In this document: piece after piece, positions 6,953-22,535 of the stretch
Layout of the letters: every line of letters begins with the position of its first letter
How positions within the stretch are numbered: the first letter of the stretch is position 1
NCBI RefSeq assembly: GCF_016925535.1
Contig: NZ_CP070496.1
Location: 744,001-808,000 of the forward strand
Source of the DNA: Natronoglycomyces albus
GTDB lineage: Bacteria > Actinomycetota > Actinomycetes > Mycobacteriales > Micromonosporaceae
Direction: 5' to 3'
Length of the DNA: 64,000 nucleotides
Program-made: the position numbers and the translations under genes
The notes under the pieces: model-generated
What the model was told of the DNA's origin: nothing
Databases searched by the model: none
What the model saw: only the letters and a program-made list of their open reading frames with translations

Positions 6953-8188
6953 TTAGGGCCGCCGATACGGGCTCGGGTCGCGCCTACTCGTCACTGGACC
7001 AGTGTGGGAGAGGCGGTACGGTGAGGTGATCCTGTGGGCCTTCGGACATATGAAGTTTCTATTAACCTTTTGGCCGGTTGCTTTCCGGAGGATTCCTCGG
7101 TCCACCAACTTGGATACGACGTTATTAGATGATTCTTGCGATTTTCCCAATATGGTGCACACGGTCGCAACATCGATAGCTGGGTAGCCTATGCGGAGTT
7201 CCACCAGTTCGATGATCGTCCCGCTGAGGCCGTCGCGACGCAGCGAATTGATGGTTTGGTTCTTGAAAGCTGTGAGTTCTTCAATCGCCGTAACTGCTTC
7301 GATAGCTTGTCGTTCCATCGCAGTAGAAAAAAATTCGATCCAGCTATCGAACTTTCCGGATTCGCTGACTGACAACAGGTGGTCTTGGTAAGCGTCCTTA
7401 TAAAGTTCGAGGTAGAAAGAGAGGTTAATGATGGGAAGCGCAAGTTCGCCGCTCTCGACTAGCTGGAGGATCGCTACCAGTCGGCCAAGCCTGCCATTCC
7501 CGTTGTGGTAGGGGTGCAAGGTCTCAAACTGGTAGTGCGCCAATGCCATTTTTATGATGATGGGAACATCGTTTTCCGCGTTGACCCACTTCTCCCAATC
7601 GCTCACGCCTTCTACCAATACGTTGCCGGGAGGCGGAGGCATAAAGCGTGCTTCTGTCACCGGGCGATTCTCCGCTCCGATGGCCACTTGGCGGGTTCGC
7701 AAATCACCAGCCTCAGGTGAGTCATCACGGGCGTCTTTGACGATTGTTTTTTGCAGCTTGCTAAGAACTGTTCTGCAAATAGGGTATTTCTGTATGAGCT
7801 CTAGCGCGCCTTCAGCGGCGGCAATGTAGTTTTTTCACCTCGCGAACTGCCGAGGACAGTTTCTGTTCGGCGATAAAGTCGGATTCAAGCGTTTCGTCGT
7901 AAGTCGCGTAGGTGCCTTCGATGGCCCACGTACTGACAGCCTCGCGCCGGATTGTGGGTCGAGCCAACAGCGCCGGATTCGGCAATCCAGACGCGGCCAT
8001 ATCGAGCCGTGCGACCGCCATCGCCGCACGGGTAGGCGCGTCGATGGCGGGGAACCCAACAGCGGGTGCGGCTGGCAGCGGGGGCAGCACGAACGCATGG
8101 TGGCTCCAGGTTTTCCCATGCGGTGGTCCTGCCCTGATACTGGAACCAGTCGGCCGCATGGGGAGTTTCCAAGTGCTTCGAGGTCCAT
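6953..8188 (-). pseudogene. Fic/DOC family AMPylator-type gene with two frameshifts
   Basis: The pieces add up to one Fic protein. The N-terminus (from ATG 8188, MDLEALGNSPCGRLVPVSG) and the Fic_N block (PNPALLARPTIRREAVSTWA, then IEGTYATYDE) are in different frames. The shift falls near 8110 at a run of four A on the coding strand; one added A restores GKTWSHHAFV. A second break is at a run of six A (7830-7835), where removing one A turns KKLHCRR-stop into KNYIAAAEGALELIQKYP and joins the rest. The catalytic motif HPYHNGNGRLGRL is intact, and the inhibitory (S/T)xxxE(G/N)-like helix lies in Fic_N. A winged-helix-like C-terminus follows. The gene is either decayed or a victim of homopolymer sequencing errors. 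Fic enzymes transfer AMP to target hydroxyls. Confidence 0.8.
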
Positions 8189-8212
8189 AGATTCAAGGAT
8201 GCGCTGATTTTC

Positions 8213-8381
8213 CTGAATCCAGCAGCGGTGAATTCAGGAAATACCCAAATTTCGGGAATCGTTTGCCCTGGATTCAGGACATCCGGAATCCAGCGCGCGT
8301 GGATTCACGGAAATGTCACAACATCTGAATGTGGGGCTCGCGAAGCGAGTGGCAAGGGTTTGGGCCGATGACTGAATCCAG
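8213..8381. repeat. Cluster of CTGAATCCAG-like palindromic 10-mers
   Basis: Within 170 bp upstream of fic there are six related 10-mers: CTGAATCCAG (8213), GTGAATTCAG (8228), CTGGATTCAG (8268), CGGAATCCAG (8284), GTGGATTCAC (8299) and CTGAATCCAG (8372). They look like a multi-site operator or a short degenerate repeat array. The region has no convincing ORF. Confidence 0.5.
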
Positions 8382-8429
8382 ATCTAGGTGCGGGGCTGCC
8401 GTTGGGCATAAATGCCGCCACCTGAAGAA

Positions 8430-8469
8430 GCGGCGGCCTCCTGGGCCAGGTAAATCAGGAGGCCGCCGC
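8430..8469. terminator. Strong hairpin in the fic-helicase gap
   Basis: A perfect 14-bp stem (GCGGCGGCCTCCTG at 8430-8443 with 8456-8469) has a 12-nt loop. No recognised gene ends just before it, so it may be an orphan terminator or a cruciform element. The rest of the gap to 8848 shows no supported gene or RNA. Confidence 0.5.
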
Positions 8470-8848
8470 GCGGCCGCCCGAGCTACCCCACTACTCCGGG
8501 CGACCTGTGGTGATGGAGGTAAAGCCTCATCACTGGCCGCGGAAGTAACGTATAACGCCTCATTACGGATTGTAAGTCAATAATCCGACATCTAGGCGTG
8601 ATCTTGTTCCAAAATAACCGTCGTCGCCGATAACAGACGTACCCTGCCCGCCCGATCGATATCGCCCAAACTCAGCAGAGACCTCAGCGGTCCCCAGGGC
8701 CCCGAACCGGCAAAATGCCGCCTGGAACCCAGAGAACAGCATCGCGCGGTAGGATTATTCGCCCGCATTCGTAGATCTCTGTGGCCCGGTCCACCAGGAA
8801 CCAGGTCTTCGCCCACACCAGCCAAGCCCGACGGGAAGGTAGCCGGCC

Positions 8849-11086
8849 TTGAGCGCTCAACACCCGCGCACCTCAGTAGACGACAGCGCCCTTGGCGGCG
8901 ACCCGACACAGCCACACGGCACCACGCCCGCACAGGGCCAGGACCGCGCCTCCGCCCACATCGATGCGGCCCTTGAACACGCCACCGACACCACGCACGC
9001 CGTGGCCCACTCCGACCCCAACAACACCCACGACCAGGAAGTGGCCATCGAACAAAAGTTCGTCGACCTGGTCTACCGCCGCCTTGACGACTTGCGCGAC
9101 GACGCCCAACAACGCCAAAGGGCCGGCTATGAATGGCGCGAGGCCACCGTCCCCGGAGCCCAATTCGAACGCGACGTCTTCGTCTACCGCGCCACCAAAC
9201 GCATCGTCGACATCGACTCCCAGCACGAGGGCCTCGTCTTCGGCCGCCTCGACCTCGACGGCGGGCGAGTCCGCCACATCGGCCGCCTCGGCGTGCGCGA
9301 CCTCGAATACCGCCCGCTGCTCATCGACTGGCGCGCCCCCGCCGCCTCGCCCTTCTACCAAGCCACCGGGCTAGACCGCAAAGGCGTCGCCCGCCGCCGC
9401 GTCATCCGCTCCTTCGGCCAGACCGTGCAGGAAGTCTCCGACGACCTGCTCGACCCCGAAGCCGAAGGCACCCTACCCGTCATCGGCGACGGCGCGCTCA
9501 TGGCTGCCCTGACCCGCAAACGCACCGGCCGCATGCGCGACATCGTCGCCACCATCCAGGCCGAACAAGACGCCGCCATCCGCGCACCCGGACGCGGAGC
9601 CACCTACATCACCGGCGGCCCCGGCACCGGCAAGACCGTCGTGGCGCTCCACCGCGCCGCCTACCTGCTCTACCAAGACCGCAGCCGCTACGAAGCCGCC
9701 GGAATCCTCGTGTGCGGCCCCTCGGCGGTCTTCATGCGCTATATCGACCGCGTCCTTCCCAGCCTGGGGGAGGAAACCGCCGCGCTGTACTCACTGGGCG
9801 AACTGTACGAAGGGGTCGAAGCCACCCGCCAAGACCCACCCGAAGTCGCCGAGCTCAAAGGCAGCCTGCGCATCCGGCCCGTTCTGGTTGCCCTGTCTCG
9901 CCTCGCGCCGCCGGAAGCCCCGAAAAACCTACGCATCGTCTATCACGGCGAGGTCTTCGACCTCGACGAACACGACCTCACCGAAGCGCGAAAGCGGGCG
10001 CTGGCGAAGGAGAACCGGCCCAACCTGGCCAAGACCGAGGCGGGCCGAGCGCTATTGGTCAGCCTGTGGCGCAAGATCAAGCCAGTGCTACCCGAGGCCG
10101 AGCCCGCCGTGTTTTCCCGCGACGTGGGCAGCCGAGGGGAGTTCCTGACTTTCCTGGATGCCTGGTGGCCGACCCTATCGCCAGAGATGGTGCTCGACTG
10201 GGCCGCCGATGCGCGTCACCTGGCCGCAGCGGCGGGGGACAACCTCACGCAGCGGCAGGTCGCCGACATCGCCGCCACGTTCCAGGAGACTGACTTTTCG
10301 ATCCAGGATGTGCCGTTGCTCGACGAGCTGCGCCAGCTGCTGGGCGTGAAGCCGCAGCGAACCCAGTCCCGCGATCGAGTGAAAGTGATCGACGGGGTTG
10401 CCGAGCTTTCGACGGCCCAAGACCGTTTTTACGACGCCGGGCCGCGTACCTCGCGGGACGCCTTCTATGACGGCTATGCCCACATCATTCTCGACGAGGC
10501 GCAGGATTTGACGCCGATGCAGTGGAGAATGCTCGGGCGCCGAGGTAAAGGCGCGGGCTGGACGATCGTGGGCGATGAGGCCCAATCCTCGTGGCCCCGC
10601 CCAGGCGAGGCCCGCCATGCGCGCTTGCAGGCGGTCCATACGCGACAGACGCATGAGTTCCACCTGCGGACGAACTATCGCAACTCCGCTGAGGTGTTCG
10701 ACTATGCCGCACAGTGGGTGAGCGGGCGTCTCTCCAAGGTGGATCTACCGGAGGCGGTGCGCAGCACTGGAATTCCGGTGCGAGAGCACCAGGTCGACGC
10801 CCATGAACTGCTGCCGCTAGTGGCGAGCATCGTGCAGGACATGCTCGGCGCGGTCGAGGGAACAGTGGGCATTATCGCGCCCTATGCGCGCCATGAGGAA
10901 CTGAAGCGGGTCGTGACCGATGAGCGGGTTTCACTCGTGGGGCCCTTGGAGTCCAAGGGGCTGGAATGGGACGCCGTGGTGACAGTGGACTTGGAACAGA
11001 TCGAGCGGCGACATGGTCCCGGAGTGGCCTATGTGGTGTTGACGCGAGCGACTCAGTTGCTCGACCGTCTCACTATTACGCAGTAG
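8849..11086 (+). CDS. helD: HelD-like superfamily 1 helicase / RNA polymerase recycling factor
   Basis: HelD proteins are UvrD-like ATPases that enter the RNA polymerase channels and release stalled or drug-bound polymerase from nucleic acid. The 745-residue protein has the HelD N-terminal coiled arm (EQKFVDLVYRRLDDLRDDAQ, about residues 68-88). The HelD-specific blocks follow: RIVDIDSQHEGLVFGRLDL and PLLIDWRAPAASPFYQA. Walker A is GGPGTGKT at residues 256-263, Walker B DEAQD at 549-553, and RTNYRNS and SKGLEWDAVV motifs come later. The length fits class II HelD of actinobacteria. The TTG start is chosen from GGGAAGG upstream; a GTG at 9004 is an alternative. Some actinobacterial paralogues (HelR) give rifamycin resistance; that is not shown here. 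Confidence 0.85.
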   Translation: MSAQHPRTSVDDSALGGDPTQPHGTTPAQGQDRASAHIDAALEHATDTTHAVAHSDPNNTHDQEVAIEQKFVDLVYRRLDDLRDDAQQRQRAGYEWREATVPGAQFERDVFVYRATKRIVDIDSQHEGLVFGRLDLDGGRVRHIGRLGVRDLEYRPLLIDWRAPAASPFYQATGLDRKGVARRRVIRSFGQTVQEVSDDLLDPEAEGTLPVIGDGALMAALTRKRTGRMRDIVATIQAEQDAAIRAPGRGATYITGGPGTGKTVVALHRAAYLLYQDRSRYEAAGILVCGPSAVFMRYIDRVLPSLGEETAALYSLGELYEGVEATRQDPPEVAELKGSLRIRPVLVALSRLAPPEAPKNLRIVYHGEVFDLDEHDLTEARKRALAKENRPNLAKTEAGRALLVSLWRKIKPVLPEAEPAVFSRDVGSRGEFLTFLDAWWPTLSPEMVLDWAADARHLAAAAGDNLTQRQVADIAATFQETDFSIQDVPLLDELRQLLGVKPQRTQSRDRVKVIDGVAELSTAQDRFYDAGPRTSRDAFYDGYAHIILDEAQDLTPMQWRMLGRRGKGAGWTIVGDEAQSSWPRPGEARHARLQAVHTRQTHEFHLRTNYRNSAEVFDYAAQWVSGRLSKVDLPEAVRSTGIPVREHQVDAHELLPLVASIVQDMLGAVEGTVGIIAPYARHEELKRVVTDERVSLVGPLESKGLEWDAVVTVDLEQIERRHGPGVAYVVLTRATQLLDRLTITQ

Positions 11087-11553
11087 CCACCGGCCTGTAG
11101 TCGATTAGTCCCACTTACACCTCGGGTGTCGGCTTAAAGTCCAAAAGGGATATAACTTCCCTCGGTGAGCTGCGTCCGATTTCCGGCCCCCGGAGCGCCC
11201 TCAAGGGAGCCGTAACCTGCGTGAATGGCAAGAACATGCACAGATGTGCCTGAATGTCTCAATCAGGTCCACTCCACCTAATAGAGCCTGTTCGACCCAA
11301 AAATTCGATGGAAAAATAGTCAAAAAAATTCTGTATTTGAATGTATTTTTCACCCACACTCCGACTCTTAGATAAGCGTGACCCACTGAGAGGGAGTCCT
11401 GAACAGACTGACAGGCTTGCACCGACGACCCCTGCCGTCGTCGATGCTTCCCTGGGCCGGGAATGAGTGCCTCTCGGCCCCTGGGGCAGGCGTTTGGAGG
11501 GGCGCCTGCCCCACATAAGTTTCAATTGGACGAGTAGCGAAGGCCCCCAAGCA
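11087..11553. other. Leader region of the subtilisin gene, with a hairpin
   Basis: No gene is supported here. The segment around 11290-11350 is AT-rich (runs of A and T) and is the likely promoter area. A perfect 11-bp stem (11482-11492 with 11503-11513) lies 40 bp before the subtilisin ATG, which argues against the longer GTG start at 11467. Confidence 0.5.
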
Positions 11554-13101
11554 ATGCGTTTGATGTTTACCGATCACGCCCCACGGATCGAATCTCCCAA
11601 CCCGCGCCGAGACCGCATGAGCGGCGTCCCGAGTCTTTCGACTCCCACTCTCAACCGCCACCACGGGCGGGTCTTGCGACCCGGTCACGTTGTCAAAGCC
11701 CCGCAGTCGCCTGAGCCTGTTGGCACGATCTACCGCTACGACCGGCTGCTGGTCGACAGTTCCGTTTTCGAGGACGAGGCCCAGTGCCATCAGCTCGGCG
11801 AGGCGCTCGAAGCCAGTGGCATGTCCGCAGCGGCCACCGCATCCAGTAGCGGAGGCAAACTATGCCGTCGCGTCCCGCTGGAACTCAGCCCCAATGCCGA
11901 TCCAGGGACGATTGACGCTTGGCGCGTCCTCCAGTCGATTCGCCGGCAAGCCAATGAAGGTACGTGTGATGCTGCGCTGGCAGACCGGGTGCGGCTAGAA
12001 CACCTGATGGTTGCGGCGAGTGACAACAGTCGCCCTGGTATTGGCGGACCCGAGCCGATCAATACCAATTTGTTGCGCCCACAGGGCCGGGTTCCCGTGG
12101 ACATGGTCGTCCCGATGCCCACTCGCAGATCTCTTGACGACTTGAACGGACGTCGCCTGCGAGTGGCGGTCCTGGACACGGGGGTGGCCCAAAAACACCC
12201 GGCGCTCAGCATTGCGGACTGGCGTGAGGGGGGCGATCCGTTCGTGGTCGTGGACTCCGAGTTCCAGCAGACACTGGGAGCCGATGCCGACCCGGCCCTT
12301 ATCCCCCTGGACAGCCCATGGGATGAGGATGTCCACAACGGTGACCTCATCGCCGAGGTCGCCAGTCACTACGGTCATGGCACGTTCATGGCGGGGATTT
12401 TGCGCCAGACGGCGCCCGATGTGCAGGTGTATTCGCTGCGGGTCATGCATAATGACGGGCTGGCCTTCGAACGGGAAGTGGTGGCGGCATTGGAACATGT
12501 GGCCGATCAAGTCGAAGCCGCCTATGCGGGCGATACCGAGGCCCTCGGTGTCGACATGGTCATCCTCTCGCTGGGCTATGTGGATGAGGACCCGACCGAT
12601 GACCCAGGCGGTTGGATGGCTGACATTGTCACCCGCCTGTCCCGCCTGGGTATACCAGTCGTGGCAGCAGCAGGCAATCAGTCCAGCGAACGGCCCTTCT
12701 ACCCGGCGGCTTTTGCCACCAGGCAGAGTGAAGCACTGGCTCCGGTCTTGAGCGTGGGCGCGTTGAATCCCAATGGCAATATCGCCATGTTCTCCAACGA
12801 TGGCCCCTGGGTCTCCTGTTTTGCCTCCGGAGCTTCGGTCGTGTCGACTTTCCCTCCGGTGGCACGTGGCTCGCTCTCCCCATATCGGCGAGTCGAGACC
12901 GACTACGCCGGGCGTTACCGCGAAAGCCTGGACCCCGATGACTTCAGTAGCGGGTTCGCCGTATGGTCAGGCACCTCGTTTGCCGCCCCACTGGCGGCGG
13001 CCTACCTGGCGAATGAAATGGAGAAACTTGGTCCGGCCCCCACTGTCGCCGAAGCCATGACCCGGTCGCAGGTGGCGTTGAAGAAACTCAAGCAGCGCTA
13101 G
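11554..13101 (+). CDS. Cytoplasmic subtilisin-like (S8) serine protease of a CHAT cluster
   Basis: The 515-residue protein has a complete subtilase triad: Asp208 in RVAVLDTGVAQKHP, His275 in HYGHGTFMAGIL and Ser475 in SGTSFAAPLAAAYLA. The oxyanion Asn lies in VVAAAGNQSS. No signal peptide or membrane segment is seen, so it should act in the cytosol, unlike most actinobacterial subtilisins. The first 180 residues are an unrecognised N-terminal region, possibly a prodomain or docking part. Stop to the sigma-factor ATG is 4 bp, so it heads an operon with the sigma factor, a small protein and a TPR-CHAT protease. The start is uncertain (in-frame GTG 11467, ATG 11554, ATG 11563). Proteolysis of a cluster partner is inference. 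Confidence 0.88.
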   Translation: MRLMFTDHAPRIESPNPRRDRMSGVPSLSTPTLNRHHGRVLRPGHVVKAPQSPEPVGTIYRYDRLLVDSSVFEDEAQCHQLGEALEASGMSAAATASSSGGKLCRRVPLELSPNADPGTIDAWRVLQSIRRQANEGTCDAALADRVRLEHLMVAASDNSRPGIGGPEPINTNLLRPQGRVPVDMVVPMPTRRSLDDLNGRRLRVAVLDTGVAQKHPALSIADWREGGDPFVVVDSEFQQTLGADADPALIPLDSPWDEDVHNGDLIAEVASHYGHGTFMAGILRQTAPDVQVYSLRVMHNDGLAFEREVVAALEHVADQVEAAYAGDTEALGVDMVILSLGYVDEDPTDDPGGWMADIVTRLSRLGIPVVAAAGNQSSERPFYPAAFATRQSEALAPVLSVGALNPNGNIAMFSNDGPWVSCFASGASVVSTFPPVARGSLSPYRRVETDYAGRYRESLDPDDFSSGFAVWSGTSFAAPLAAAYLANEMEKLGPAPTVAEAMTRSQVALKKLKQR

Positions 13102-13105
13102 TCTG

Positions 13106-13717
13106 ATGATCATGACGGCAATGAACACTGAGGACGGCATCGCGGACTTTCAGCGACGGGCTGAGTTGCTCAAACTGGCGCGATCAGGTGACCGGGTGGC
13201 AATGAAGTCTCTGGTGGATGATCTGGGGCCACTGCTGTGGCGGGTGGCCCGCTACCAGGGGTTGAGCATCGATGCCGCCGCCGATGTTGTGCAGACGGCG
13301 TGGATGAAGCTGGTGAAGCACTGGGAGTCCATCGAGGAGCCGCAGGCGGTTACCGCCTGGTTGACGACGACGGTCCGCCGGGATGCGCAACGAATTCGCA
13401 CTGCGGCCCGGCGCGAATCCACTATCGATCCCGTCGAGTTCCCGGACCCTCCCTCACCGTTGACCGACAGTGTTGACGAGCAGCTGATTCGCAAACAAGA
13501 ACATCGGGCGGTTCGGCGGGTCCTAGCCCGCACGGGCTCCCCGTGCCGGGAGCTTCTGGCCTATATTTCGGCCGCGGAACGCCCCGATTATGACGTTATA
13601 GCGCAATCGCTGGGAATGAAAAAGGGCAGCATTGGGCCTACACGGGGCCGATGTTTGGCCAGATTGCGCCGAGATCTACAGAAAGAACCGGATTGGGGCC
13701 ATGGTGAGGAGCGCTGA
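13106..13717 (+). CDS. ECF-type RNA polymerase sigma factor
   Basis: The 203-residue protein has sigma region 2 at about residues 25-95 (LLWRVARYQGLSIDAAADVV, then QTAWMKLVKHWESI, then AVTAWLTTTVRRDAQR) and region 4 at about 140-195 (YDVIAQSLGMKKGSIGPTRG, then RCLARLRRDL). The linker holds an acidic, proline-rich stretch. It directs polymerase to an unknown, probably small, regulon. It is sandwiched between the subtilisin (4-bp gap) and a small soluble protein whose ATG follows its stop by 1 bp. No transmembrane anti-sigma gene is present, so control may come from the small protein or by proteolysis. Three ATG codons (13106, 13112, 13121) are possible starts. Confidence 0.87.
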   Translation: MIMTAMNTEDGIADFQRRAELLKLARSGDRVAMKSLVDDLGPLLWRVARYQGLSIDAAADVVQTAWMKLVKHWESIEEPQAVTAWLTTTVRRDAQRIRTAARRESTIDPVEFPDPPSPLTDSVDEQLIRKQEHRAVRRVLARTGSPCRELLAYISAAERPDYDVIAQSLGMKKGSIGPTRGRCLARLRRDLQKEPDWGHGEER

Positions 13718-13718
13718 G

Positions 13719-14183
13719 ATGAACCGGGAAGATGCTTCCATCTTGCGAGCGGTCGATGAGCTACACCGAGAGATGGACCCGCCGCCGGAGGATTTGTCCG
13801 ACCGCATTATGTTCGCGTTGGACTTGGAACAGAACCTTGCAGCCGAGGTGGCTGAGCTGACCGAAGAGCCGGTGCTAGCCGGACACCGGGGAGCAAGCGG
13901 GTCAATCACGTTTAACTGTGAAGCGGTGACCGTTATGGTCAGTCCCCGCACCGCCCTTGATAAGACGATTCGCGTCGACGGCTGGATCGCCCCCGAAGGC
14001 GAGTACCGGGTCCAGGTCCGGCTTCCCGAGGGAGACCGCGAGGCGATATCCAATGAGCATGGCAGGTTCGCGATGGAGCACCTGCCAGCTGGAGAAATGG
14101 TGCAATTCGTGCTACGTGCGTCCGACCAGCTGCAACGAGGAGGGGTGTCTGCGGTTGTGGTGACCCCGGCGGTACGCCTATGA
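13719..14183 (+). CDS. Small helix plus beta-sandwich protein of the CHAT cluster
   Basis: This 154-residue soluble protein has no named family that I can assign firmly. Residues 1-50 are predicted helical (ILRAVDELHREMDPPPEDLS, then DRIMFALDLEQNLAAEVAEL) and resemble the short helical part of cytosolic anti-sigma proteins. Residues 60-154 are beta-rich, with WIAPEGEYRVQVRLPEG and NEHGRFAMEHLPAGEMVQFV, typical of a carboxypeptidase-regulatory/transthyretin-like beta-sandwich. ATG 13719 is preferred because GAGGAG precedes it; an in-frame ATG at 13701 lies inside the sigma gene. Position between the sigma factor and the TPR-CHAT protease suggests a regulator, adaptor or protease substrate; this is inference. 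Confidence 0.7.
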   Translation: MNREDASILRAVDELHREMDPPPEDLSDRIMFALDLEQNLAAEVAELTEEPVLAGHRGASGSITFNCEAVTVMVSPRTALDKTIRVDGWIAPEGEYRVQVRLPEGDREAISNEHGRFAMEHLPAGEMVQFVLRASDQLQRGGVSAVVVTPAVRL

Positions 14184-14223
14184 CCGACTGTCATTCGTAG
14201 CGAGCGTGTAGCACAATGTTGGG

Positions 14224-16755
14224 GTGACTGACCCCGACGACGAACTGATCACCCGAGCCTGGCGGCTGCAAGAAAGCGGCTGGAACCTGCACAGTCGTGG
14301 ACACTACTCGGAAGCGGCAGCGGAGCTTAAACGTGGGCTGAGTTTGGTCAATTGGGATCCTACGGTTCCCCCTCGTCGGGGAGAACCTGCTGCTCGGGTA
14401 ACGTCACGGCTACTTATATCGCTCGCACTGACGGAGTTTTATCTGGGCGGTACTAATCGCGAGTTGAAGCTGCTTGAGTATGCTGAAGAGTTCGTTATTC
14501 CTGAGGATAAGGGTAGGCTTTACAATCAACGCGGCATGATTCTTGTGCGTCGTTCCCGGGTCGAAGAAGCTCTAGATTGCTTTTTGGCAGCGGAACCACT
14601 TCTTGAGGAATATGGCCCGGAATGGTTGTACGCAGGTCTTTTCCTGAACCGGGCGGGAGCGCTTCATGATTTGAGTCGGCACCAGGAAGCCCTAAATGAT
14701 GCTAGTCGCGCACGCGACTTGTTGGAGCAACAAGGTAACGATCTTCATGTGGCAAAGGCAGTCCATCTGACTGCGATGATCAGAGGAGAGCTTGGTTACT
14801 ATACCGAAGCCCTCGCACTCTTCGAAAGAGTGAGGCCCGTATATGCCGAACTTGCGCCGGAACTTCTCTTTGAACTCAATGGAAATTATCAGGGAATGCT
14901 GATCAGGGTTGGAATGGTCCGTGAGGCACTCTCAATTTCCCGGACTCTTATTAGAGAGAATCAGGGGTCTGAGAAAAAGTCACTTATAGCTGGGAATCTT
15001 CAAACCGGGGCGAACGCGGCTCTTGCTGCGCAGGACTTCGAAACTGCGCGAAAATGGGCGAAAAAAGCTCAGGAAATGCGCTCTCAGCAAGCATATGAGC
15101 CGGCTATGATTGCCGCTCAGCTAACTGTACTGAGATGTGACTTGGAGATGGGTAATCTCCGCGCCGGAATGGCGAATGAGATTGAGATTCTATATGAAAA
15201 AATGAGAAAATGGCGCTGGGCGATTAGTCTTGATACTACAAGAGTTCTTGCTGCTCGAGCAGCACTGCAAGAGGGAGATGTCAATAGGTCATCCCGGCTA
15301 CTTAGCCAGCCTATGTGTGACGTGTTTCAGAATGTTAATGCCCGATTCGAGACGTTTTTGGCTTTGGCGGAACTGGCCGGGGCTCAAAGAGAAGATCCTA
15401 TTCCTCATCTCCAAGAGGGGTTGGATTTTTTGGCCGAACATCGTTCCAAATACGGAAGCATTGAGTTTCAAGCAGGCGTGTCGATGGTTGGGCAAAAGCT
15501 GGCTGACTTTGGGCTTGAAGTCGTCGCCGACCGAGGTGAAGCCAAGGCGATTCTTGCGTGGACCGAGCGAGTCCGTGCCCAAAACCTCCAGGTTCCCCCA
15601 ACTCAGAACGACACTGATCCAGCTGTACGCGACCAAATGGCTCAGTTGCGCCGCGCGCGGAATGACTTGTGGGATGCTCAGCTGAATAGCCAACCGGTTG
15701 ATGAGGTCGCCCAGCGTGTCGCCGATCTCGAATCAAAATTGCGTAGCAGCGCTTGGCAGCAGGCTGGCCCTGGCCATGTTGCGGAAGAGACCACCCCCGA
15801 CCAGATCAAGGCCCTCGCGGCCGAGGGCAATGCCACGGTCATCAGCTACTTCGAGTATCGAGGCAAGCTCGCCGCGATTGTCGTCAGTGGTGAGGACATC
15901 CAGTGGACGACCCTCACCGATCTGGCCGAGGTTGAGGAGCTGGCCCGGCAGGTCAACGCCGACCTGGACGCGCTCGCCTCCGACTTCCTGCCGACGCCAC
16001 TGCGCGGCAGCGTCACCAACTCCTTGCAATCCAACGTGGCTCGCCTGGCCGACAGCGTCTTGACTCCGCTCGATGAGCACGTGGGCACCGAATCGGTGGT
16101 CATCGTTCCCACTCGCGCTCTTAACTGGGTGCCCTGGGGCATGATGCCGCAGCTGGTCGACCGCCCGGTGACGGTCGCGCCGTCGGCCTCGGTGTGGTGG
16201 CGCTGCACGCGCCAAAACTCGCCGGGCGGCAGAGTACTGCTCGCGTCCGGCCCGGCGTTGCGCGAAGTGCATGAGGAGTTTGCCGCCGTCGCCCGCTGCT
16301 ATGACGACCCCGATATTCTCACCGGCGAGGACGCCACCCCAGAGGCGATTCTCTCCGCAATGGACGGTGCCGCCGTGGCTCACTTGGCCGCGCACGGCCA
16401 GCACGAGCCCGACAACGTTCTTTTCTCACGCCTCAACTTCCACGACGGCCCGCTCATGGCCTACGATCTCGACAGCCTCGACACCGCGCCCACCGAAGTC
16501 ATTCTGTCCGCCTGCGAGTTGGGGCGCTCCACAGTCGACGTGGGTGACGAGACATTGGGCTTTACCGCCGCGCTCCTGCACGCTGGCACCTCCACCGTAA
16601 TCGCCAGCTTGACCCGAGTTCCCGAACAACTGTCCGCGGACATGATGTCGGCCTACCATCGAGGCCGCGCCGCCGGACTCCCTCCGGCCAAAGCGCTCGC
16701 CGAAGCGGGCAAGGGCCACCCGTGGCACCCGTTCATTTGTTTCGGGCGCGGCTAG
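14224..16755 (+). CDS. TPR-CHAT caspase-like protease
   Basis: The 843-residue protein joins an N-terminal array of tetratricopeptide-like helices (about residues 10-440) to a C-terminal CHAT peptidase domain (about 560-843). The catalytic dyad is His724 in VAHLAAHGQ and Cys764 in EVILSACELGRS, with the usual GDETLGFTAALLHAG following. CHAT enzymes are caspase-like cysteine proteases; several bacterial TPR-CHAT proteins are defence or cell-death effectors switched on by partner proteins. The start is a GTG 40 bp after the preceding gene. The codon and base composition of the TPR part is clearly lower in G+C than the CHAT part, which suggests a separate history for the sensor half. The target protein is unknown. 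Confidence 0.9.
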   Translation: MTDPDDELITRAWRLQESGWNLHSRGHYSEAAAELKRGLSLVNWDPTVPPRRGEPAARVTSRLLISLALTEFYLGGTNRELKLLEYAEEFVIPEDKGRLYNQRGMILVRRSRVEEALDCFLAAEPLLEEYGPEWLYAGLFLNRAGALHDLSRHQEALNDASRARDLLEQQGNDLHVAKAVHLTAMIRGELGYYTEALALFERVRPVYAELAPELLFELNGNYQGMLIRVGMVREALSISRTLIRENQGSEKKSLIAGNLQTGANAALAAQDFETARKWAKKAQEMRSQQAYEPAMIAAQLTVLRCDLEMGNLRAGMANEIEILYEKMRKWRWAISLDTTRVLAARAALQEGDVNRSSRLLSQPMCDVFQNVNARFETFLALAELAGAQREDPIPHLQEGLDFLAEHRSKYGSIEFQAGVSMVGQKLADFGLEVVADRGEAKAILAWTERVRAQNLQVPPTQNDTDPAVRDQMAQLRRARNDLWDAQLNSQPVDEVAQRVADLESKLRSSAWQQAGPGHVAEETTPDQIKALAAEGNATVISYFEYRGKLAAIVVSGEDIQWTTLTDLAEVEELARQVNADLDALASDFLPTPLRGSVTNSLQSNVARLADSVLTPLDEHVGTESVVIVPTRALNWVPWGMMPQLVDRPVTVAPSASVWWRCTRQNSPGGRVLLASGPALREVHEEFAAVARCYDDPDILTGEDATPEAILSAMDGAAVAHLAAHGQHEPDNVLFSRLNFHDGPLMAYDLDSLDTAPTEVILSACELGRSTVDVGDETLGFTAALLHAGTSTVIASLTRVPEQLSADMMSAYHRGRAAGLPPAKALAEAGKGHPWHPFICFGRG

Positions 16756-17051
16756 TGGCACGGCTACGACACGCTCAGCAGCCAAGGAAACACAGTTCGG
16801 TAACGTTTTGCCGCGCAAACCCCGACATAGTGTCCGATTCCAGCTGTCGTCCGCTGGCAGCGTTTGTCGTTGACTATTAGGGTGGTCGCACACCCACCGA
16901 TCGCCCCAGGACCAAGAACACACACGTTGCGGCAAGCCAGGCGACAGAGCCCGGCTCCCATCTCCCCAGGCCCACCCATGTCTCTTGGCTGACCCCTTGC
17001 GAAAACGGGCGCGCCGACAGCGCACCCACGACAGCTGACACGGAGGATTCG
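16756..17051. other. Gap before the DUF4129-MoxR operon
   Basis: No gene is supported. CGTTGACTATTAGGGTGGTC near 16868 may hold promoter elements for the next operon, whose first ATG is preceded by GGAGGATTCG. Confidence 0.3.
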
Positions 17052-17747
17052 ATGCGCCGACGCCCCTGGGTGCTCCTTACTTTGCTTCTGGTCCTCCTGG
17101 CTGGATACTCGGCGGCCAGCGGTGGGTTCTCGCACCGCGAGTCCGTACACGAGACCACTGAGTATGTGGATTTCGAGGAAGAAGAGCGCGATGAGGAAGA
17201 TCTAGAGCTCTTGGGGGAGGCACCCGAGCAATGGGGAGCCCTTGATCTACCTCCATATTTTCACTACCTCCTCGTGGGAACGACTGTATTTCTCTCCGTC
17301 CTCACGATCCTGCTTATTCTGGTGGCGGTTCTGCGAGCAGCCAGCGATCTTGCGAGAATTTTCAATGCTCGCAGGAACCGGCAAAAGGTAGTGGCTACTT
17401 CGGATGAGCACGCCGACATCGGCACCATTCGGCAGGCTGTAGCCGAATCGTTGCGGCGCATAGACCTTGGTGATAGTCCGCGTGAGGCTATCTTCGCCTG
17501 TTGGCTATCGCTGGAGGAAGCCGCCGACCGGATAAGAGTGGAACGCAAACCCTCCGACACCCCAGGTGCTTTTGTGACCCGCCTGTTGGACCGGGCTGAT
17601 GTCGATGCGCGCTCTATCAGGGAACTTTATGAGGTGTACCTGACCGCGCGCTACTCGCCGCACGACATTACTGATTCGGATGTGGCGCGAGCTCGCCGCA
17701 CGCTAAGGGCGATCAGTGAACAACTGGGACGGACGGTGAACCGATGA
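17052..17747 (+). CDS. DUF4129-domain membrane protein
   Basis: The 231-residue protein has an N-terminal signal-anchor-like helix (WVLLTLLLVLLAGYSA, residues 6-21), an acidic extracytoplasmic segment with FEEEERDEEDLELL, a second membrane helix (about 73-97) and a cytoplasmic DUF4129-type domain. That domain contains IRQAVAESLRRIDLGDSPRE, IFACWLSLEEAADRIRV and RELYEVYLTARYSPHDITDSD. DUF4129 proteins occur beside MoxR ATPases and DUF58 proteins, as here, and sometimes with transglutaminase domains (absent here). It starts a five-gene operon with overlapping junctions; the stop overlaps the next ATG by 4 bp. The function of the operon in cell-envelope biology is a family-level inference. Confidence 0.8.
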   Translation: MRRRPWVLLTLLLVLLAGYSAASGGFSHRESVHETTEYVDFEEEERDEEDLELLGEAPEQWGALDLPPYFHYLLVGTTVFLSVLTILLILVAVLRAASDLARIFNARRNRQKVVATSDEHADIGTIRQAVAESLRRIDLGDSPREAIFACWLSLEEAADRIRVERKPSDTPGAFVTRLLDRADVDARSIRELYEVYLTARYSPHDITDSDVARARRTLRAISEQLGRTVNR

Positions 17748-18262
17748 CTGGTCGAGTACCCACCTGGGCCCGAGTCTTTGGCAAAGTTAGTTTTCGGGGC
17801 GCTTCCGGAATGGTCTTGGCCGGTTTCTCCATATGGCTGGTTAGCGCAGTTTCGGGCCTATGGATTGAGCCTTGGCAGGTCCTTGTCACCTCGGCGTTGT
17901 GCTACCTGTTCTTGCGAGTGTTTCTGGCCACGAACGTCGTAGTGCAAGACTTCGCCTTGATGGTGGCCCACGATGTCAACCGGCCGCATGTCAATCCGTT
18001 CGAACATGTCAAGGAATGGGAACGCACACTCATATTCGCTCAGCGCTACCCGGACCACTTCACTGACTTTGCCCAGCAGAAGTTGCGGGCCCTGACCGCG
18101 AAGCGTCTCTCGGTGCGGCACCATCTAAATCTCGCCGATCACCCTGATGAGTCGAGGGCTCTCATCGGATCCGAACTCTATGACTTCCTCCATGATCCAA
18201 CACAGACCTTCCCCACAAGGGCCGAGTTTGACCGCTATTTGAGCCAGATTGAGAAGATATGA
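17744..18262 (+). CDS. Hypothetical membrane protein of the MoxR operon
   Basis: The 172-residue protein has two close membrane helices (about residues 20-66: MVLAGFSIWLVSAVSGLWI and VLVTSALCYLFLRVFLATNV) and a charged cytosolic tail of about 105 residues. The start ATG overlaps the DUF4129 gene stop (ATGA), and its own stop overlaps the moxR start. I do not recognise a domain in the tail. The tight coupling with MoxR and DUF58 genes argues that it belongs to the same membrane complex. Confidence 0.7.
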   Translation: MTGRVPTWARVFGKVSFRGASGMVLAGFSIWLVSAVSGLWIEPWQVLVTSALCYLFLRVFLATNVVVQDFALMVAHDVNRPHVNPFEHVKEWERTLIFAQRYPDHFTDFAQQKLRALTAKRLSVRHHLNLADHPDESRALIGSELYDFLHDPTQTFPTRAEFDRYLSQIEKI

Positions 18263-19302
18263 CGCACCCACATGACACCCCGCCTCTGCCGCTAGCCGAA
18301 GTCAGCGCAGCTGCCGACGAAGTCGTGAAGTCCGTTCAGTCAGTCATCGTCGGTAAGGAATCCTCGCTGCGTCTTGTTATGGCGGCGATTTTGGCTGGCG
18401 GCCACGTTCTGATCGAAGACCTGCCAGGTCTGGGGAAGACGCTGACCGCCCGCTGTTTCGCTCAGGCGCTGGGCTTGGAATTTTCACGGCTCCAGTTCAC
18501 ACCGGATCTGCTTCCGGCCGATGTGACAGGTTCCTTTATCTACAACCAGAAGTCGATGGAATTCGACTTCCGTTCCGGCCCGGTTTTCACCAACCTGGTG
18601 CTTGCCGATGAAATCAACCGGACCCCGCCGAAAACTCAGGCCGCGTTGTTGGAAGCGATGCAAGAGCGGCGCGTCTCGGTGGAAGGCCAGACGTTTGACC
18701 TCCCCGACCCGTTCTGTGTGCTGGCTACCTCGAACCCAGTCGAATTTGAAGGCACATACCAACTTCCCGAGGCGCAACTAGACCGCTTTTTGTTGCGGGT
18801 GTCGTTTGGCTACCCCAGCCGAAGCGAAGAACTGGAAGTGTTGGCCCGGCGCATGAATCGCCGCCAAGAGAACACTCATCTGGAACCGGTGATCTCGGCC
18901 GAACAGCTCACTGTGATGCAACGGTCCCTGGAATGGGTGAGCGTCGAAGACTCCGTTAGCGAATACATCGTAGACATTGTGGCCGCGACTCGTGACCACC
19001 AACAACTGCAAGTAGGTGCCTCACCACGTGGTTCGCTCGCCCTGATGCTGGTGGGCCGAGCAATGGCCGTGCTGGCCGGGCGGGACTTCGTCACTCCCGA
19101 TGACATACGTTTGGCAGCGGGCCCCGCGTTGTCTCATCGGGTCAGCCTGCGGCCGGAACTGTGGATGCGGCGCATTGACGCGGCCGAGGTCATCGAGCAG
19201 GTCGTCCAGAAGGTTCCCGCCCCGTCCTCTCACGCACTGCCAACCCACGGTCAAACCAGTGCTGAGGAGAATCACCTAGGTTCCAATAAAGGGGCCGGTT
19301 AA
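18259..19302 (+). CDS. MoxR-type AAA+ ATPase
   Basis: MoxR ATPases act as chaperone-like machines that mature or remodel partner complexes, often with von Willebrand-fold proteins. The 347-residue protein has Walker A in EDLPGLGKTLTAR (about residues 54-66), Walker B in NLVLADEINRTPPKTQAALL, sensor 1 in CVLATSNPVEFEGTYQLPEA and arginine-finger region LDRFLLRV. The small lid domain is at the C-terminus (ASPRGSLALMLVGRAMAVLA). It overlaps its neighbours on both sides by 1-4 bp, so the operon is translationally coupled. Stoichiometric partnership with the DUF58 protein next door is expected from the family. Confidence 0.93.
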   Translation: MTHPHDTPPLPLAEVSAAADEVVKSVQSVIVGKESSLRLVMAAILAGGHVLIEDLPGLGKTLTARCFAQALGLEFSRLQFTPDLLPADVTGSFIYNQKSMEFDFRSGPVFTNLVLADEINRTPPKTQAALLEAMQERRVSVEGQTFDLPDPFCVLATSNPVEFEGTYQLPEAQLDRFLLRVSFGYPSRSEELEVLARRMNRRQENTHLEPVISAEQLTVMQRSLEWVSVEDSVSEYIVDIVAATRDHQQLQVGASPRGSLALMLVGRAMAVLAGRDFVTPDDIRLAAGPALSHRVSLRPELWMRRIDAAEVIEQVVQKVPAPSSHALPTHGQTSAEENHLGSNKGAG

Positions 19303-20648
19303 TGAGCCTATCGGGCGTACCCGCCGCTGCCGCGACCCCCGCGACCAGATCTGAGCTGGCGTTCTTTCCGACGCGGGCACTCAGGCGCAGCCTTGGTCTG
19401 ATCATCCTGCTTGCCGTGTTGACGATCATGTTGGGACGGGTCGAGTTCGTCATCGCGTTGGCACCGTTCGCGATCGGCCTAGCCGCATTGCTGGGACACG
19501 TGCCGACCATCGAGCCCACGGCCCAGATTAAGCTCAGTTCGGAGGCCAGCTTTGAAGGTAGCTCCTCCGAGGCAGTGCTTCGCCTTCACAATGAGGCTGA
19601 GGTTCCAGTTGTGGTTCACTCGGCCCTTGATCATGGGCAGTGGCTCACGTTCACCCAGGGCACCAATTATGCCGATGTTGTCAAGGCCAATAGCGTCCGC
19701 GAGCGCCGCGTCCCCTTCACTATGAATCGGTGGGGTTCGCTTCACATAGGCCCGGCCTATTATCGGGCACTGGCCTGCGGTGGACTGTTGGAAGCAACGA
19801 GGCAAGTTGCCGCGCCCAAGAACATGAGGTCAACTCCGACCGCTATGCCCACGGATCTGAAGTTTCGGATGCCGGATGCCCGTGGCTTTGTCGGGCCTCA
19901 CCGTTCCACACTTCATGGTGATGCCGCCGAGCTGGCTGAAGTACGTTACTTCCAACCTGGCGACCGGTTGCGGCGCATCGATTGGCGTTCCTCGGCGCGC
20001 TCCCAACACCTGTATGTCAACGCCACCGAGTCTGAACGCGATGTCGACGTCACGTTGGTACTGGATACGACCTCTGAGGCCGGAACCTCTGCCGGTGTTA
20101 AGGGAGCCGCGAGCGTTCTCGACCTCACCGTGCGGTCAGCGTTCGGAGTAACGGCGCATTTCACCGAACAAGGCGATCGAGTCGCCCTGTGGGAATATGC
20201 GCCTCACGCCCGTCACCTGCGATCAGGAACCGGCCGCCGCCAGCAAGAAGCCGCCGGTGTGTGGTTGACGAAGACGATGGTCGCTGAGCATCCCTCTCCG
20301 GTCGACCCGCGCCGCTACCTATCCATGCTGCGGTCAGGTCAGGGACTCATTATCGTGTTCACTCCGTTGTTGAGCAACTCGCCGCTGGATTTCATGGGGC
20401 TTCTAGCCAGCACTGGTCGGAGTCTCTTGTGTGTGGATACTCTGCCGCGGGACCTACAGCCCAACCATGTAAGCGAACAAGCCCTTCGCTTGTGGCACCT
20501 CGAACGCGAGAACCTGCTGGCCGATCTCGAAGAGCGTGGCGTCCACGTGCTTACTCCCACGCGCACCGCCCAGGGAGATCGCCTTTCATTCGTTTACAGC
20601 CCGGCCACGTCGCAGGGAAAGGGGCACTCATATGGTGCTGTGGCCTAA
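19302..20648 (+). CDS. DUF58 (vWA-like) domain membrane protein
   Basis: The 448-residue protein has two adjacent N-terminal membrane helices (about residues 30-65) and an extracytoplasmic-type beta region. The DUF58 signature YFQPGDRLRRIDWRSSARSQ (about residues 212-232) follows, then a von Willebrand A-like fold with DVTLVLDTTSEAG. DUF58 proteins are the standard partners of MoxR ATPases. The last 17 bp overlap the next gene. No catalytic activity is predicted; a scaffold or chaperone-client role is likely. It is also the vWA-fold component closest to the CHAT cluster upstream. Confidence 0.88.
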   Translation: MSLSGVPAAAATPATRSELAFFPTRALRRSLGLIILLAVLTIMLGRVEFVIALAPFAIGLAALLGHVPTIEPTAQIKLSSEASFEGSSSEAVLRLHNEAEVPVVVHSALDHGQWLTFTQGTNYADVVKANSVRERRVPFTMNRWGSLHIGPAYYRALACGGLLEATRQVAAPKNMRSTPTAMPTDLKFRMPDARGFVGPHRSTLHGDAAELAEVRYFQPGDRLRRIDWRSSARSQHLYVNATESERDVDVTLVLDTTSEAGTSAGVKGAASVLDLTVRSAFGVTAHFTEQGDRVALWEYAPHARHLRSGTGRRQQEAAGVWLTKTMVAEHPSPVDPRRYLSMLRSGQGLIIVFTPLLSNSPLDFMGLLASTGRSLLCVDTLPRDLQPNHVSEQALRLWHLERENLLADLEERGVHVLTPTRTAQGDRLSFVYSPATSQGKGHSYGAVA

Positions 20649-21210
20649 AGCGGGGCTCGACGCGTCCAAGAATTGGGCGGTCAGTTGGACGTCTACCGCG
20701 CTGATGGTGCGGGTAGTAATCTTCACCTGTTTCTTGGCAGCGCCCTTCGCCGCGCTTCCTCTGCGGGTCGTCACCGAGCCGCTCGTCACGTTCGCCCTCG
20801 TGGTGGCCGCGGCCACGTGCGCGGTGATTCCTCGAACCGTGGCCCCGGTCGTGATTTCGGTGGGGTACATCCTCACCTGGACTATGCAGATGGAGTGGGG
20901 GGCGGGAGCCTCGTCCTCGTTGTTGCGAGCGCTCGGATTCGGCCTCTTGTTGTATACGGCGTTCAGCCTGATCGCAGTCACCACCCACACCAGGCGCAAC
21001 ACCGCGATTGACCGTGAGATTCTGCTCACCTGGGGTCGTCATGTTGGGTTTGTAGCGGCCTTGACCAGCGCGGCGGCGGCAATACTATGGGCATCTACCA
21101 CGTATGTTCCGCTGCTTCCCTCCAATGTGGCCTTCGTGGTGTCGCTGGTGGCAGTCGGCATAGTGATCTATGTCTTGGCCCGTATCGTTCATAAGAGCAT
21201 CAACAACTAG
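20632..21210 (+). CDS. Multi-span membrane protein closing the MoxR-DUF58 operon
   Basis: The 192-residue protein has about five or six hydrophobic segments and no family that I can name. ATG 20632 is chosen (GGGAAAGGGG upstream); the frame is open further upstream inside DUF58 but without a suitable start. Its last 68 residues (from AIDREILLTWGRH) have a second, about 75% identical copy encoded at 23257-23472, on the far side of the XRE/DUF397 cassette. This gene therefore appears to be the site where the cassette entered. Function unknown; complex membership with the DUF4129, MoxR and DUF58 proteins is inferred from the operon. Confidence 0.75.
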   Translation: MVLWPKAGLDASKNWAVSWTSTALMVRVVIFTCFLAAPFAALPLRVVTEPLVTFALVVAAATCAVIPRTVAPVVISVGYILTWTMQMEWGAGASSSLLRALGFGLLLYTAFSLIAVTTHTRRNTAIDREILLTWGRHVGFVAALTSAAAAILWASTTYVPLLPSNVAFVVSLVAVGIVIYVLARIVHKSINN

Positions 21211-21226
21211 ACACAATAGAGCGAGT
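21004..21226 (+). repeat. Left copy of a diverged direct repeat flanking the XRE cassette
   Basis: This segment (3' end of the membrane gene plus CACAATAG...GCGAGT after the stop) is repeated at 23257-23479. Similarity continues past the stop codon, so the whole 3' region, not just the protein domain, is duplicated. Confidence 0.8.
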
Positions 21227-21275
21227 TGTGCGGCCCCCGCGTTAAGCAGGGGCCGGATTGCTTTGCGCTAGCTAT

Positions 21276-21449
21276 TTATCGGGCAGCGTCGAGTAGGGCA
21301 GAGAAGTCAGCACTGGCCAGGGTGAAGATAGGCGAGCCCTCGCCCAGCTTCGAGTCCCGGACCTGCTGGTTTCCCGCCGCTCGACGAGCTTCGAGACATT
21401 GCCCGCCTTGGTTAGAACTCCTCGACGACTTGCGCCATGCTGTGTCCAT
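21276..21449 (-). CDS. DUF397-domain small protein
   Basis: This 57-residue protein reads MDTAWRKSSRSSNQGGQ, then VRDSKLGEGSPIFTLAS, then a DFSALLDAAR end, the typical DUF397 pattern (W-x-K-S-S-x-S, V-R-D-S-K, W/F-x-x-F). DUF397 proteins are small partners of WhiJ-like XRE regulators in filamentous actinobacteria, where many paralogous pairs modulate development or stress responses. Its ATG overlaps the TAA of the XRE gene (TAATG), so the two are translationally coupled. The conserved first W is a Phe in the usual second aromatic position. I checked the frame codon by codon; it is shorter than a 60-residue cut-off and easily missed. Confidence 0.88.
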   Translation of the reverse strand: MDTAWRKSSRSSNQGGQCLEARRAAGNQQVRDSKLGEGSPIFTLASADFSALLDAAR

Positions 21450-22282
21450 TACGTGTACTCCTCTATCGGGGTTGCACTGTCAAATGCCAGCTTAAAAGGC
21501 TCCTTGTATAGCCTGATAACGGCCGGATCTTCGATATAGCGGCAGCCGTCGAGCCCATCTACGTACACGACGGTTTCAGTTTCATGGTCCCCGCTGTTAG
21601 TACGCGATGTGAGAAGAGTAAATGACCCCAGCGTAGGCCCCACCTGCCGGATGATGCGAATGTTAATTCCCGGACGCTTGGCCATCGAGTTGAGGTGCGC
21701 GAGCTGTTCGGCTTTTACGTTGGCGGGCATCGCGTCAAGGTATCCGATTGCTCCCATCCCAATCGCGAACCGCATTTCTGGCAGTGACGGTCTCTCGAAC
21801 ATGAGTACTTGGCGGTGGATTCGCAGGTTGCGGACGCCTTCGATCGCTTCGGCAGACATGCGGGATGCGGCCATGATCTCGTCTATATATGCGGGTGATT
21901 GCAGGAGCCCAGGAATGAACTCAAGGTCAAGGGTTCGGAGGTCTGTGGCCGTCTGTTCGGTCTCTAGATAGAGCGGTTGCAAGTGGATGTTGCCGTCCGG
22001 GTAACGCTCCCACCAGCCGCGCTTGCCACTGTCCAGCGCTAGGCCGACTAGGCGGCTGGTTTCGATGGGGTCGACTTCATAGATACGGCACAGGTCCCTG
22101 ACTATTGGCAGTTTCGCGCCGCGCTTACCTCGGGCCTCTTCTAGCCGTGAGATGGTGTCGCGGCCAAGGCCGGTTTCTGCGGCGGCATCGGCGATGCTCA
22201 TCCTGGCGGCCTCGCGGTGGCGGCGGAGCGCGCGCCCGACTGCGCGTCGCGCGATAGTGGGTTGCGTCTGTGACTGTGTCAT
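21449..22282 (-). CDS. WhiJ-like XRE-family regulator (HTH plus DUF5753)
   Basis: The 277-residue protein has an N-terminal HTH_XRE domain (about residues 10-75: ALRRHREAARMSIADAAAET, GLGRDTISRLEEAR) and a DUF5753-type C-terminal region of about 180 residues. That region contains LEFIPGLLQSPAYIDEIM, RQVLMFERPSLPEMRFAIG and VVYVDGLDGCRYIEDPAVI. This is the usual actinobacterial WhiJ-type architecture. ATG 22282 is preferred over upstream frame starts because the HTH then begins at the usual place. It is transcribed divergently from two small hypothetical genes and ends inside the DUF397 start. A perfect 18-bp palindrome 20 bp upstream of its ATG is a likely autoregulatory operator. Confidence 0.88.
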   Translation of the reverse strand: MTQSQTQPTIARRAVGRALRRHREAARMSIADAAAETGLGRDTISRLEEARGKRGAKLPIVRDLCRIYEVDPIETSRLVGLALDSGKRGWWERYPDGNIHLQPLYLETEQTATDLRTLDLEFIPGLLQSPAYIDEIMAASRMSAEAIEGVRNLRIHRQVLMFERPSLPEMRFAIGMGAIGYLDAMPANVKAEQLAHLNSMAKRPGINIRIIRQVGPTLGSFTLLTSRTNSGDHETETVVYVDGLDGCRYIEDPAVIRLYKEPFKLAFDSATPIEEYT

Positions 22283-22301
22283 TACTTGAGCGTACGAGCA
22301 T

Positions 22302-22319
22302 TTGTGCGTATACGCACAA
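22302..22319. promoter_or_regulatory. Perfect 18-bp palindrome upstream of the XRE gene
   Basis: TTGTGCGTATACGCACAA is fully self-complementary and sits just upstream of the XRE ATG in the divergent intergenic region. It is a candidate operator for the XRE regulator. Confidence 0.55.
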
Positions 22320-22427
22320 CGCGACACGCAAAAACGAGACCGTAAATTGCGCATGCGCGTGTCTCTAGTTTTTTGGGTGAGAAGGCCCTTATTGTCGAGT
22401 TGTGGCCGTCACAGGCGGTCATGAAAC

Positions 22428-22472
22428 GAGGCGACCACCCGATTCCTTGCAGGGTCCCTGGGTGGTCGCCTC
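22428..22472. other. 13-bp hairpin in the divergent region of the cassette
   Basis: GAGGCGACCACCC (22428-22440) is perfectly inverted at 22460-22472 with a 19-nt loop. It lies between the XRE promoter and the small plus-strand genes. It could terminate leader transcripts or be a recognition or end structure. Confidence 0.45.
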
Positions 22473-22535
22473 TCGACATCACGAGTTGGAACCCGAGATG
22501 ACATCAGAAACGATACTGCCTACGGGCGGCGCGCG

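Follow-up and report, generated by a model that had tools for sequence, protein, structure and literature searches.

In a stretch of 64,000 nucleotides from Natronoglycomyces albus (contig NZ_CP070496.1, positions 744,001 to 808,000; hereafter the window, in whose own numbering positions are given), the gene for a small protein of 154 amino acids stands between those of an extracytoplasmic function (ECF) sigma factor and a TPR-CHAT protease, with an S8 subtilase gene ahead of them (Table 1). We propose, with a probability of about one half, that the small protein is a protease-released anti-sigma factor in a conserved and apparently autoregulated sigma/protease switch that occurs in many soil actinobacteria. 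A preliminary description of the same sequence had named the protein as the likely link between the sigma factor and the proteases and as the best anti-sigma candidate. The role of a link is supported because the pair of sigma and small gene is nearly constant among relatives while the proteases move, and because the second helix of the protein is shortened where the sigma gene has been lost, and a conserved promoter-like motif adds to it; the binding and the cleavage that the description envisaged are predictions of this reading.

Table 1. Positions of the module genes and of their parts in the window
Feature	Position	Strand	Basis or remark
Predicted module promoter, TGTATTT-N16-CTCTTA	11342..11370	+	Site with at most 2 mismatches upstream of S8
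S8 subtilase, without obvious signal peptide or membrane segment	11467..13101	+	Pfam Peptidase_S8 1.3e-23
ECF-type sigma factor (sigma2-sigma4), ECF54-like by context	13106..13717	+	NCBIfam sigma70-ECF 2.7e-16; Pfam Sigma70_r2 2e-10
Small protein (linker); candidate anti-sigma and protease substrate	13719..14183	+	154 aa
Two N-terminal helices (residues 3-19, 26-43), proposed sigma-binding part	13725..13847	+	AlphaFold2 model
Beta-sandwich, conserved at its end (VVTPxxxL), candidate face towards the proteases	13896..14180	+	AlphaFold2 model
TPR-CHAT cysteine protease	14224..16755	+	Pfam CHAT 6.4e-34, and TPR

Gene set, predicted fold and conservation

The coordinates agree with the earlier statement that the gene starts 1 bp past the sigma stop: the TGA occupies 13715-13717, the single base 13718 follows, and the ATG stands at 13719, the small gene closing with a stop codon at 14181-14183. 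The protein was rightly called soluble, its highest 19-residue Kyte-Doolittle mean being 0.78, and by the same measure no membrane segment is found in any of the four module proteins (0.87 for the sigma factor, 1.24 for S8 and 1.38 for CHAT); among these four, then, there is no membrane anti-sigma, as had been described. An AlphaFold2 model built from 25 sequences (predicted local distance difference test, pLDDT, 84.7; predicted template modelling score, pTM, 0.65) gives the protein its two N-terminal helices and places most strands from residue 63 onward, in agreement with the helical N-terminus and beta-sandwich C-terminus read from the sequence before. The predicted sandwich is best called one of the common Ig/FnIII-like kind, of which the earlier "transthyretin-like" is a fair lay description; its structural matches in the PDB are weak and generic (best Z 8.1), Foldseek returned no match for the protein at E ≤ 1e-3, and the family profile met only weak, unrelated chains among the PDB sequences. 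The C-terminal end is conserved: of 171 distinct copies, 154 carry a T at position -6 and 129 end exactly with the model. Of 18 family members, 14 match Pfam CarboxypepD_reg (PF13620) at E ≤ 0.1, the best at 9.3e-6; the window protein itself is not among them. Carboxypeptidase activity of the small protein was considered and rejected, as the conserved columns hold no plausible catalytic set.

Relatives of the small protein in other genomes share 27-53% identity with it and have conserved gene neighbours as well. A search with the single protein gave a match in 17 of 61 near genomes, its own included, and the family profile found members in 32 of 296 phylum genomes, 175 of 350 family genomes and 116 of 394 class genomes, the carriers including Rugosimonospora, Phytomonospora, Paractinoplanes, Dactylosporangium, Micromonospora, Nonomuraea and Trebonia. 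A scan of genome contigs with the window protein as single sequence returned no relative, and the plasmid search returned one chromosome-sized record, from Nonomuraea. We examined 235 loci, some of them the same place fetched twice; 229 of these hold 232 copies of the small protein, which collapse at 90% identity to 151 non-redundant copies. The sigma gene directly precedes the small gene on the same strand in 141 of the 151, the immediate adjacency expected of an anti-sigma factor. Where at least 4.5 kb of sequence was available on each side of the small gene (101 long-flank copies), 95 copies have the sigma gene, 92 an S8 gene within 6 kb, 89 a CHAT gene within 6 kb and 88 both proteases, counts that are conditional on the small protein, through which the loci were found. 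The order of the window, S8-sigma-small-CHAT, occurs beside sigma-small-S8-CHAT and beside sigma-small with CHAT on the opposite strand, the pair staying together as the proteases change place and strand around it; neither protease is in reach in 8 of the 101 long-flank copies, 6 of which keep the adjacent sigma gene. The start of the small gene overlaps the sigma stop by 4 bases in 9 of 17 loci and in 17 of 25 sigma-bearing loci of another set. One locus (L127:5942-17081) carries the module as a tandem duplicate with two small genes and one sigma gene, the second small gene having no sigma of its own, and in Micromonospora tarensis (L092/L211) the small gene is split into two open reading frames (ORFs) by a frameshift or an assembly error.

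The catalytic residues of both proteases are intact. Counted over the distinct aligned rows that cover the column in question (154 rows per protein, with the 37 to 87 rows not covering a given column left out), S8 keeps D in 67 of 67, H in 117 of 117 and S in 107 of 107, and CHAT keeps H and C in 108 of 108 each. The true start of the window's S8 gene probably lies later than 11467, at about 11554. In the window's own genome of 4.0 Mb the CHAT match of the module is the only one, beside 16 Sigma70_r2 and 19 S8 matches, and the sigma factor is the sole member of its subfamily at E ≤ 1e-12. PADLOC gave a generic subtilase match for S8 alone, and the search of PDB sequences returned no CHAT relative for the CHAT protein.

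The promoter-like motif and the loss of sigma genes

The regions upstream of S8 and of the sigma gene have in common a bipartite motif, (T)GTATC-N17/18-CTCT. Among 88 unique TGTATCA words in the loci, CTC follows after 16 bases in 29 and after 17 bases in 23, compared with 0 to 4 at spacings of 8-15; lesser peaks at spacings 19 (9/88) and 22 (10/88) perhaps come from repeated CTC. The module loci hold 52 unique exact sites, all of them outside the aligned module genes. Of these, 20 are directed at S8 and 8 at sigma over a distance of at most 700 bases (28 together), 11 are turned outward from a neighbouring module gene, and the other 13 belong to neither group. The copy in the window is degenerate and lies 257 bases from S8, against 255 in the closest relative (L020). 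A site with at most 2 mismatches is found upstream of S8 in all 17 loci formed by the window and 16 near relatives, and letter shuffles of the same upstream stretch produce one with a frequency of 0.146 for the window and 0.064 for the closest relative. Over the whole window the 2-mismatch pattern is not significant alone (29 found, 32 expected); the form GTAT[CT]T-N15-17-CTCT[TA]A, refined on loci among which the window is counted, has a single occurrence in the 64 kb, at the predicted promoter. The exact motif, from which the window promoter deviates, has 3 sites in the window's own genome and 7 for the reversed control, numbers that carry no information on a regulon.

The generic ECF promoter words GGAAC, CGTC and CGTT are not enriched in 20 regions upstream of S8; in 92 regions upstream of sigma, CGTT occurs in 66 (48.5 expected) and AAC-N16-18-CGT in 24 (9.4 expected), and we set these aside because the top 6-mers there, TCGTTC and CGTTCG, resemble the S8 active-site codons of the preceding gene. 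When 15 genomes were scanned, strict sites stood beside a sigma gene or module of the same kind in four genomes (4 of 4 in G030, 2 of 2 in G372, 1 of 1 in each of G143 and G427), those of the latter two genomes and one in each of the former pointing away from the module. We regard the conserved motif as the promoter of the sigma factor of the module, which would read it, and its placement suggests autoregulation. In four loci the motif occurs as a back-to-back pair with a separation of about 20-50 bases, of which one copy faces the module and the other faces outward (L024:10931/10954, L220:5231/5209, L221:5272/5251 and L031:12575/12627). At another (L126:8774-10349), the motif precedes a gene of 493 aa that is divergent from the module and whose trypsin-like match in Pfam is weak (5.6e-4, slightly short of the cut-off), possibly a third protease of the circuit.

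In three species, Dactylosporangium aurantiacum, D. siamense and D. fulvum (loci L080, L085 and L086), the sigma gene is missing between S8 and the small gene, and S8, the small gene and CHAT remain. The small proteins of these three keep the beta-sandwich and lack 4, 4 and (counted as unaligned) 16 of the 20 columns of helix 2; a gap of this kind is absent from all 146 sigma-paired non-redundant copies and present in all three Dactylosporangium copies without sigma. The same three genomes (G396, G359 and G421) encode other sigma factors of the subfamily elsewhere. The promoter motif before S8 persists in L080 and L085, where a sigma factor encoded at another place may drive it. A second line of evidence comes from evolutionary distances in 114 full modules, for which 3289 of 6441 pairs were usable: in partial correlations the helices track sigma (0.21, 0.29) and not S8 or CHAT, and for S8 the correlation of the sandwich is higher than that of the helices by 0.23 (0.13 to 0.34 over 70% subsamples). 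Short of proof, these findings favour a linker with two faces, whose helices would hold the sigma factor and whose sandwich would serve the proteases.

Weighing the role of the small protein

In the mechanism that we favour, the four genes would form one self-activating, protease-gated transcription switch. A brake on the sigma factor would be needed because the module promoter suggests self-activation, and the two N-terminal helices of the small protein could provide it by keeping the co-translated, ECF54-like sigma factor inactive. The beta-sandwich would be the part recognised by the TPR-CHAT protease, by the S8 subtilase or by both; upon a signal sensed by the TPR part of CHAT, or by the subtilase, the small protein would be cut and the sigma factor freed. 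The freed sigma factor would then transcribe its own module from (T)GTATC-N17/18-CTCT and thereby make more of the proteases, turning the circuit into an all-or-none switch.

Several results weigh against this reading. The erosion of helix 2 rests on one genus because helix 2 is intact in all five further copies that have no sigma gene next to them (5/5), and the loss of sigma in Dactylosporangium was probably one event. The distances show no excess of the sandwich over the helices in tracking CHAT (-0.05, -0.16 to 0.05) and no significant excess of the helices over the sandwich in tracking sigma. Structure prediction of the sigma-small pair, which the preliminary description had proposed as a check, did not dock the two: the fused chain of one relative (L079, with the sigma stop read through under translation table 4) was modelled by AlphaFold2 from an unpaired, shallow alignment at pLDDT 86.5 with a sigma part resembling sigma-E, AlgU and SigW, and its pTM of 0.46 gives no confident docking. 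A direct coupling analysis of 146 pairs was underpowered: couplings within a protein did not exceed those between the two proteins in strength, and the helices held no excess of signal. The likeness of the helices to cytosolic anti-sigma helices, also part of the preliminary description, found no sequence support: no anti-sigma family was matched by the 18 members in Pfam (E ≤ 0.1) or by the window protein in NCBIfam, and the invariant and near-invariant columns of the 18 contain no Cys or His and hence no zinc anti-sigma (ZAS) motif. The strict promoter motif gave 28 sites across the 15 genomes against 18 for the reversed control, and many of those outside the four genomes named above are probably due to chance. 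Finally, a published review proposes, in its passage on this sigma group, proteolysis of the sigma factor itself without an anti-sigma (PMC8999054).

The pairing, too, has exceptions when approached from the sigma factor. Among 40 sigma loci picked for the absence of a listed small protein next to the sigma gene, a hidden Markov model (HMM) with a loose threshold found the small protein in 26, and 14 are without it, which again speaks against our reading. One of the 14 (L329) has a divergent small-like protein by eye and another (L340) lies at a contig edge; in the other 12 (L318, L321, L322, L323, L325, L326, L332, L333 and L335-L338), whose sigma genes belong to the same broad subfamily, no small-like gene is among the downstream ORFs listed. 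As a separate observation, the sigma gene is followed by a solute-binding lipoprotein-like gene in L318 (checked in Pfam), L321 and L337.

The main rival to the protease-released anti-sigma makes the sigma factor itself the protease substrate, with the small protein as an adaptor that delivers it to CHAT or S8 and no anti-sigma involved, which is close to the published reading of ECF54. The joint erosion of helix and sigma gene fits an adaptor equally well, and the lack of any anti-sigma family match is in its favour. We nevertheless regard it as less likely: the "carboxypeptidase" in that reading is probably the small protein, whose family has a regulatory-like Pfam match and invariant residues that form no plausible catalytic set, and a self-activating promoter that drives sigma-destroying proteases together with their sigma factor would, as we see it, silence itself. 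A chaperone or inhibitor of S8 or CHAT that makes no contact with the sigma factor, the latter merely transcribing the operon, would explain why the sigma-less Dactylosporangium loci retain the small protein beside S8 and CHAT and why the distances of its beta domain vary together with those of S8. This we think quite improbable, given that most long-flank copies with neither protease in reach keep the adjacent sigma gene and that the small gene so frequently overlaps the sigma stop. The near-constant pairing would also suit an activator or stabiliser of the sigma factor, a partner for holoenzyme formation or promoter binding, but this leaves both the two conserved proteases and the precedents of Csx30 and CalpT unexplained, and there is little to recommend it.

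Related systems and the injection-system link

Among the open-licence PMC papers searched, PMC8999054 alone was found to describe this gene context. Its passage on ECF54, citing Huang 2015 and Casas-Pastor 2021, presents ECF sigma factors, mainly from Actinobacteria, for which control by proteolysis, with no anti-sigma, is assumed on the ground that carboxypeptidase, subtilase and CHAT proteins recur in their neighbourhood. The window cluster has all three kinds of neighbour, as do its relatives with both proteases, and the published gene set is very probably the present module, so the cluster as such is not new. Where that passage and our reading differ is in the carboxypeptidase-like gene, probably the same as that of our small protein, which here would encode a non-catalytic, two-helix and beta-sandwich anti-sigma candidate and comes with a promoter motif. 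As far as the open-licence PMC literature was searched, the promoter, the link to injection systems and the interpretation of the "carboxypeptidase" as a candidate anti-sigma without catalytic function are new.

The closest mechanistic parallels come from CRISPR systems. As described in PMC10028731, Craspase of type III-E CRISPR combines Csx29, a TPR-CHAT protease, with Csx30 and the ECF-like CASP-sigma, for which motifs lie in its own locus; Csx30 is a soluble inhibitor of 565 aa whose N-terminal part binds the sigma factor and whose cleavage relieves the inhibition, the role that we propose for the small protein. Unlike Craspase, the module has no protein of effector size nearby and adds an S8 protease, and the small protein has 154 aa and showed no similarity to Csx30 when the family profile was compared with PDB sequences, no Csx30 alignment being compared. 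In the type III CRISPR relay of CalpL, CalpT and CalpS, a soluble protease, an anti-sigma and an ECF sigma factor act in the same succession, the protease being a Lon protease with a SAVED sensor for cA4 in place of TPR-CHAT and S8 (PMC11417357). Csx30 and CalpT may thus serve, by analogy, as precedents for the small protein. The promoter of ECF41, TGTCACA-n16-CGTC upstream of the sigma factor's own locus, is likewise bipartite and of similar length, with a 16-bp spacer; its -35 and -10 letters are different, and ECF41 has a fused regulatory domain (PMC3426412).

The CHAT protein reached 28.2 bits against the Csx29 equivalog NF041237, far below its cut-off of 300. The largest ORFs overlapping 8000-26000 are CHAT (843 aa) and a helicase-like protein (745 aa), so there is no Cas7-11 at the locus, the rest of the genome not having been searched; Cas7-11 is much larger than 843 aa. 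Directly after CHAT, the window holds a cluster of DUF4129, MoxR ATPase and DUF58 genes (17052-20648), which is probably unrelated because two of its genes recur in the closest relative only among 18 loci compared. Upstream of the module lies a UvrD/AAA helicase-like protein (8849-11086) with a homologue near the module in one of the 18 loci (L023). Further downstream, an XRE-HTH/DUF5753 regulator (21449-22354, minus strand) stands with a divergent small gene (22536-22838, plus strand), a pair common in actinobacteria.

In some other species the module may have a further output. After CHAT, the same promoter motif precedes a contractile-sheath stretch in five loci, exactly at L166:10903, L167:11007, L174:1569 and L182:1534 and with one mismatch at about L175:10935. 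The sheath piece of L166 has a PHROG tail sheath match at 8.9e-28 and, short of the cut-off, one to Pfam Phage_sheath_1 at 2e-5; the first gene of the L166 stretch has a CarboxypepD_reg-like domain (9.4e-5, likewise short of the cut-off). Sheath matches occur in 227 of 350 family genomes; the 11 best, with 84-100% identity to the L166 query and from 10 genomes, all lie 5-6 kb from the small-protein gene, and most of the others are more distant in sequence, with no linkage to the small gene seen. We rejected such an output for the window, whose own genome has no sheath match, and for the same reason the injection-system output would be lineage-specific. In Streptomyces, contractile injection systems mediate cell death under stress (PMC10066040, PMC10020575).

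Overall, a bolder form of the proposal, which we put forward tentatively and with the odds against it, would see in the module a CRISPR-free counterpart of Craspase that is widespread in actinobacteria: a TPR-CHAT protease and a cytosolic subtilase would destroy a soluble anti-sigma of an unrecognised class, built of two helices and a beta-sandwich, and so free an ECF54 sigma factor, which would turn on the protease genes and, in part of the lineages, those of a contractile injection system, as a stand-alone and self-amplifying cell-fate switch. If this is true, protease-released sigma switches of the Craspase and CalpL type are not specific to CRISPR and may be a general device of actinobacteria, and ECF54, one of several sigma groups presumed to have no anti-sigma, gains a brake, a promoter and a trigger that are specific enough to test. 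One decision circuit would then take in the CHAT proteases together with, in a part of the genomes, the cell-death injection machines known from those Streptomyces studies.
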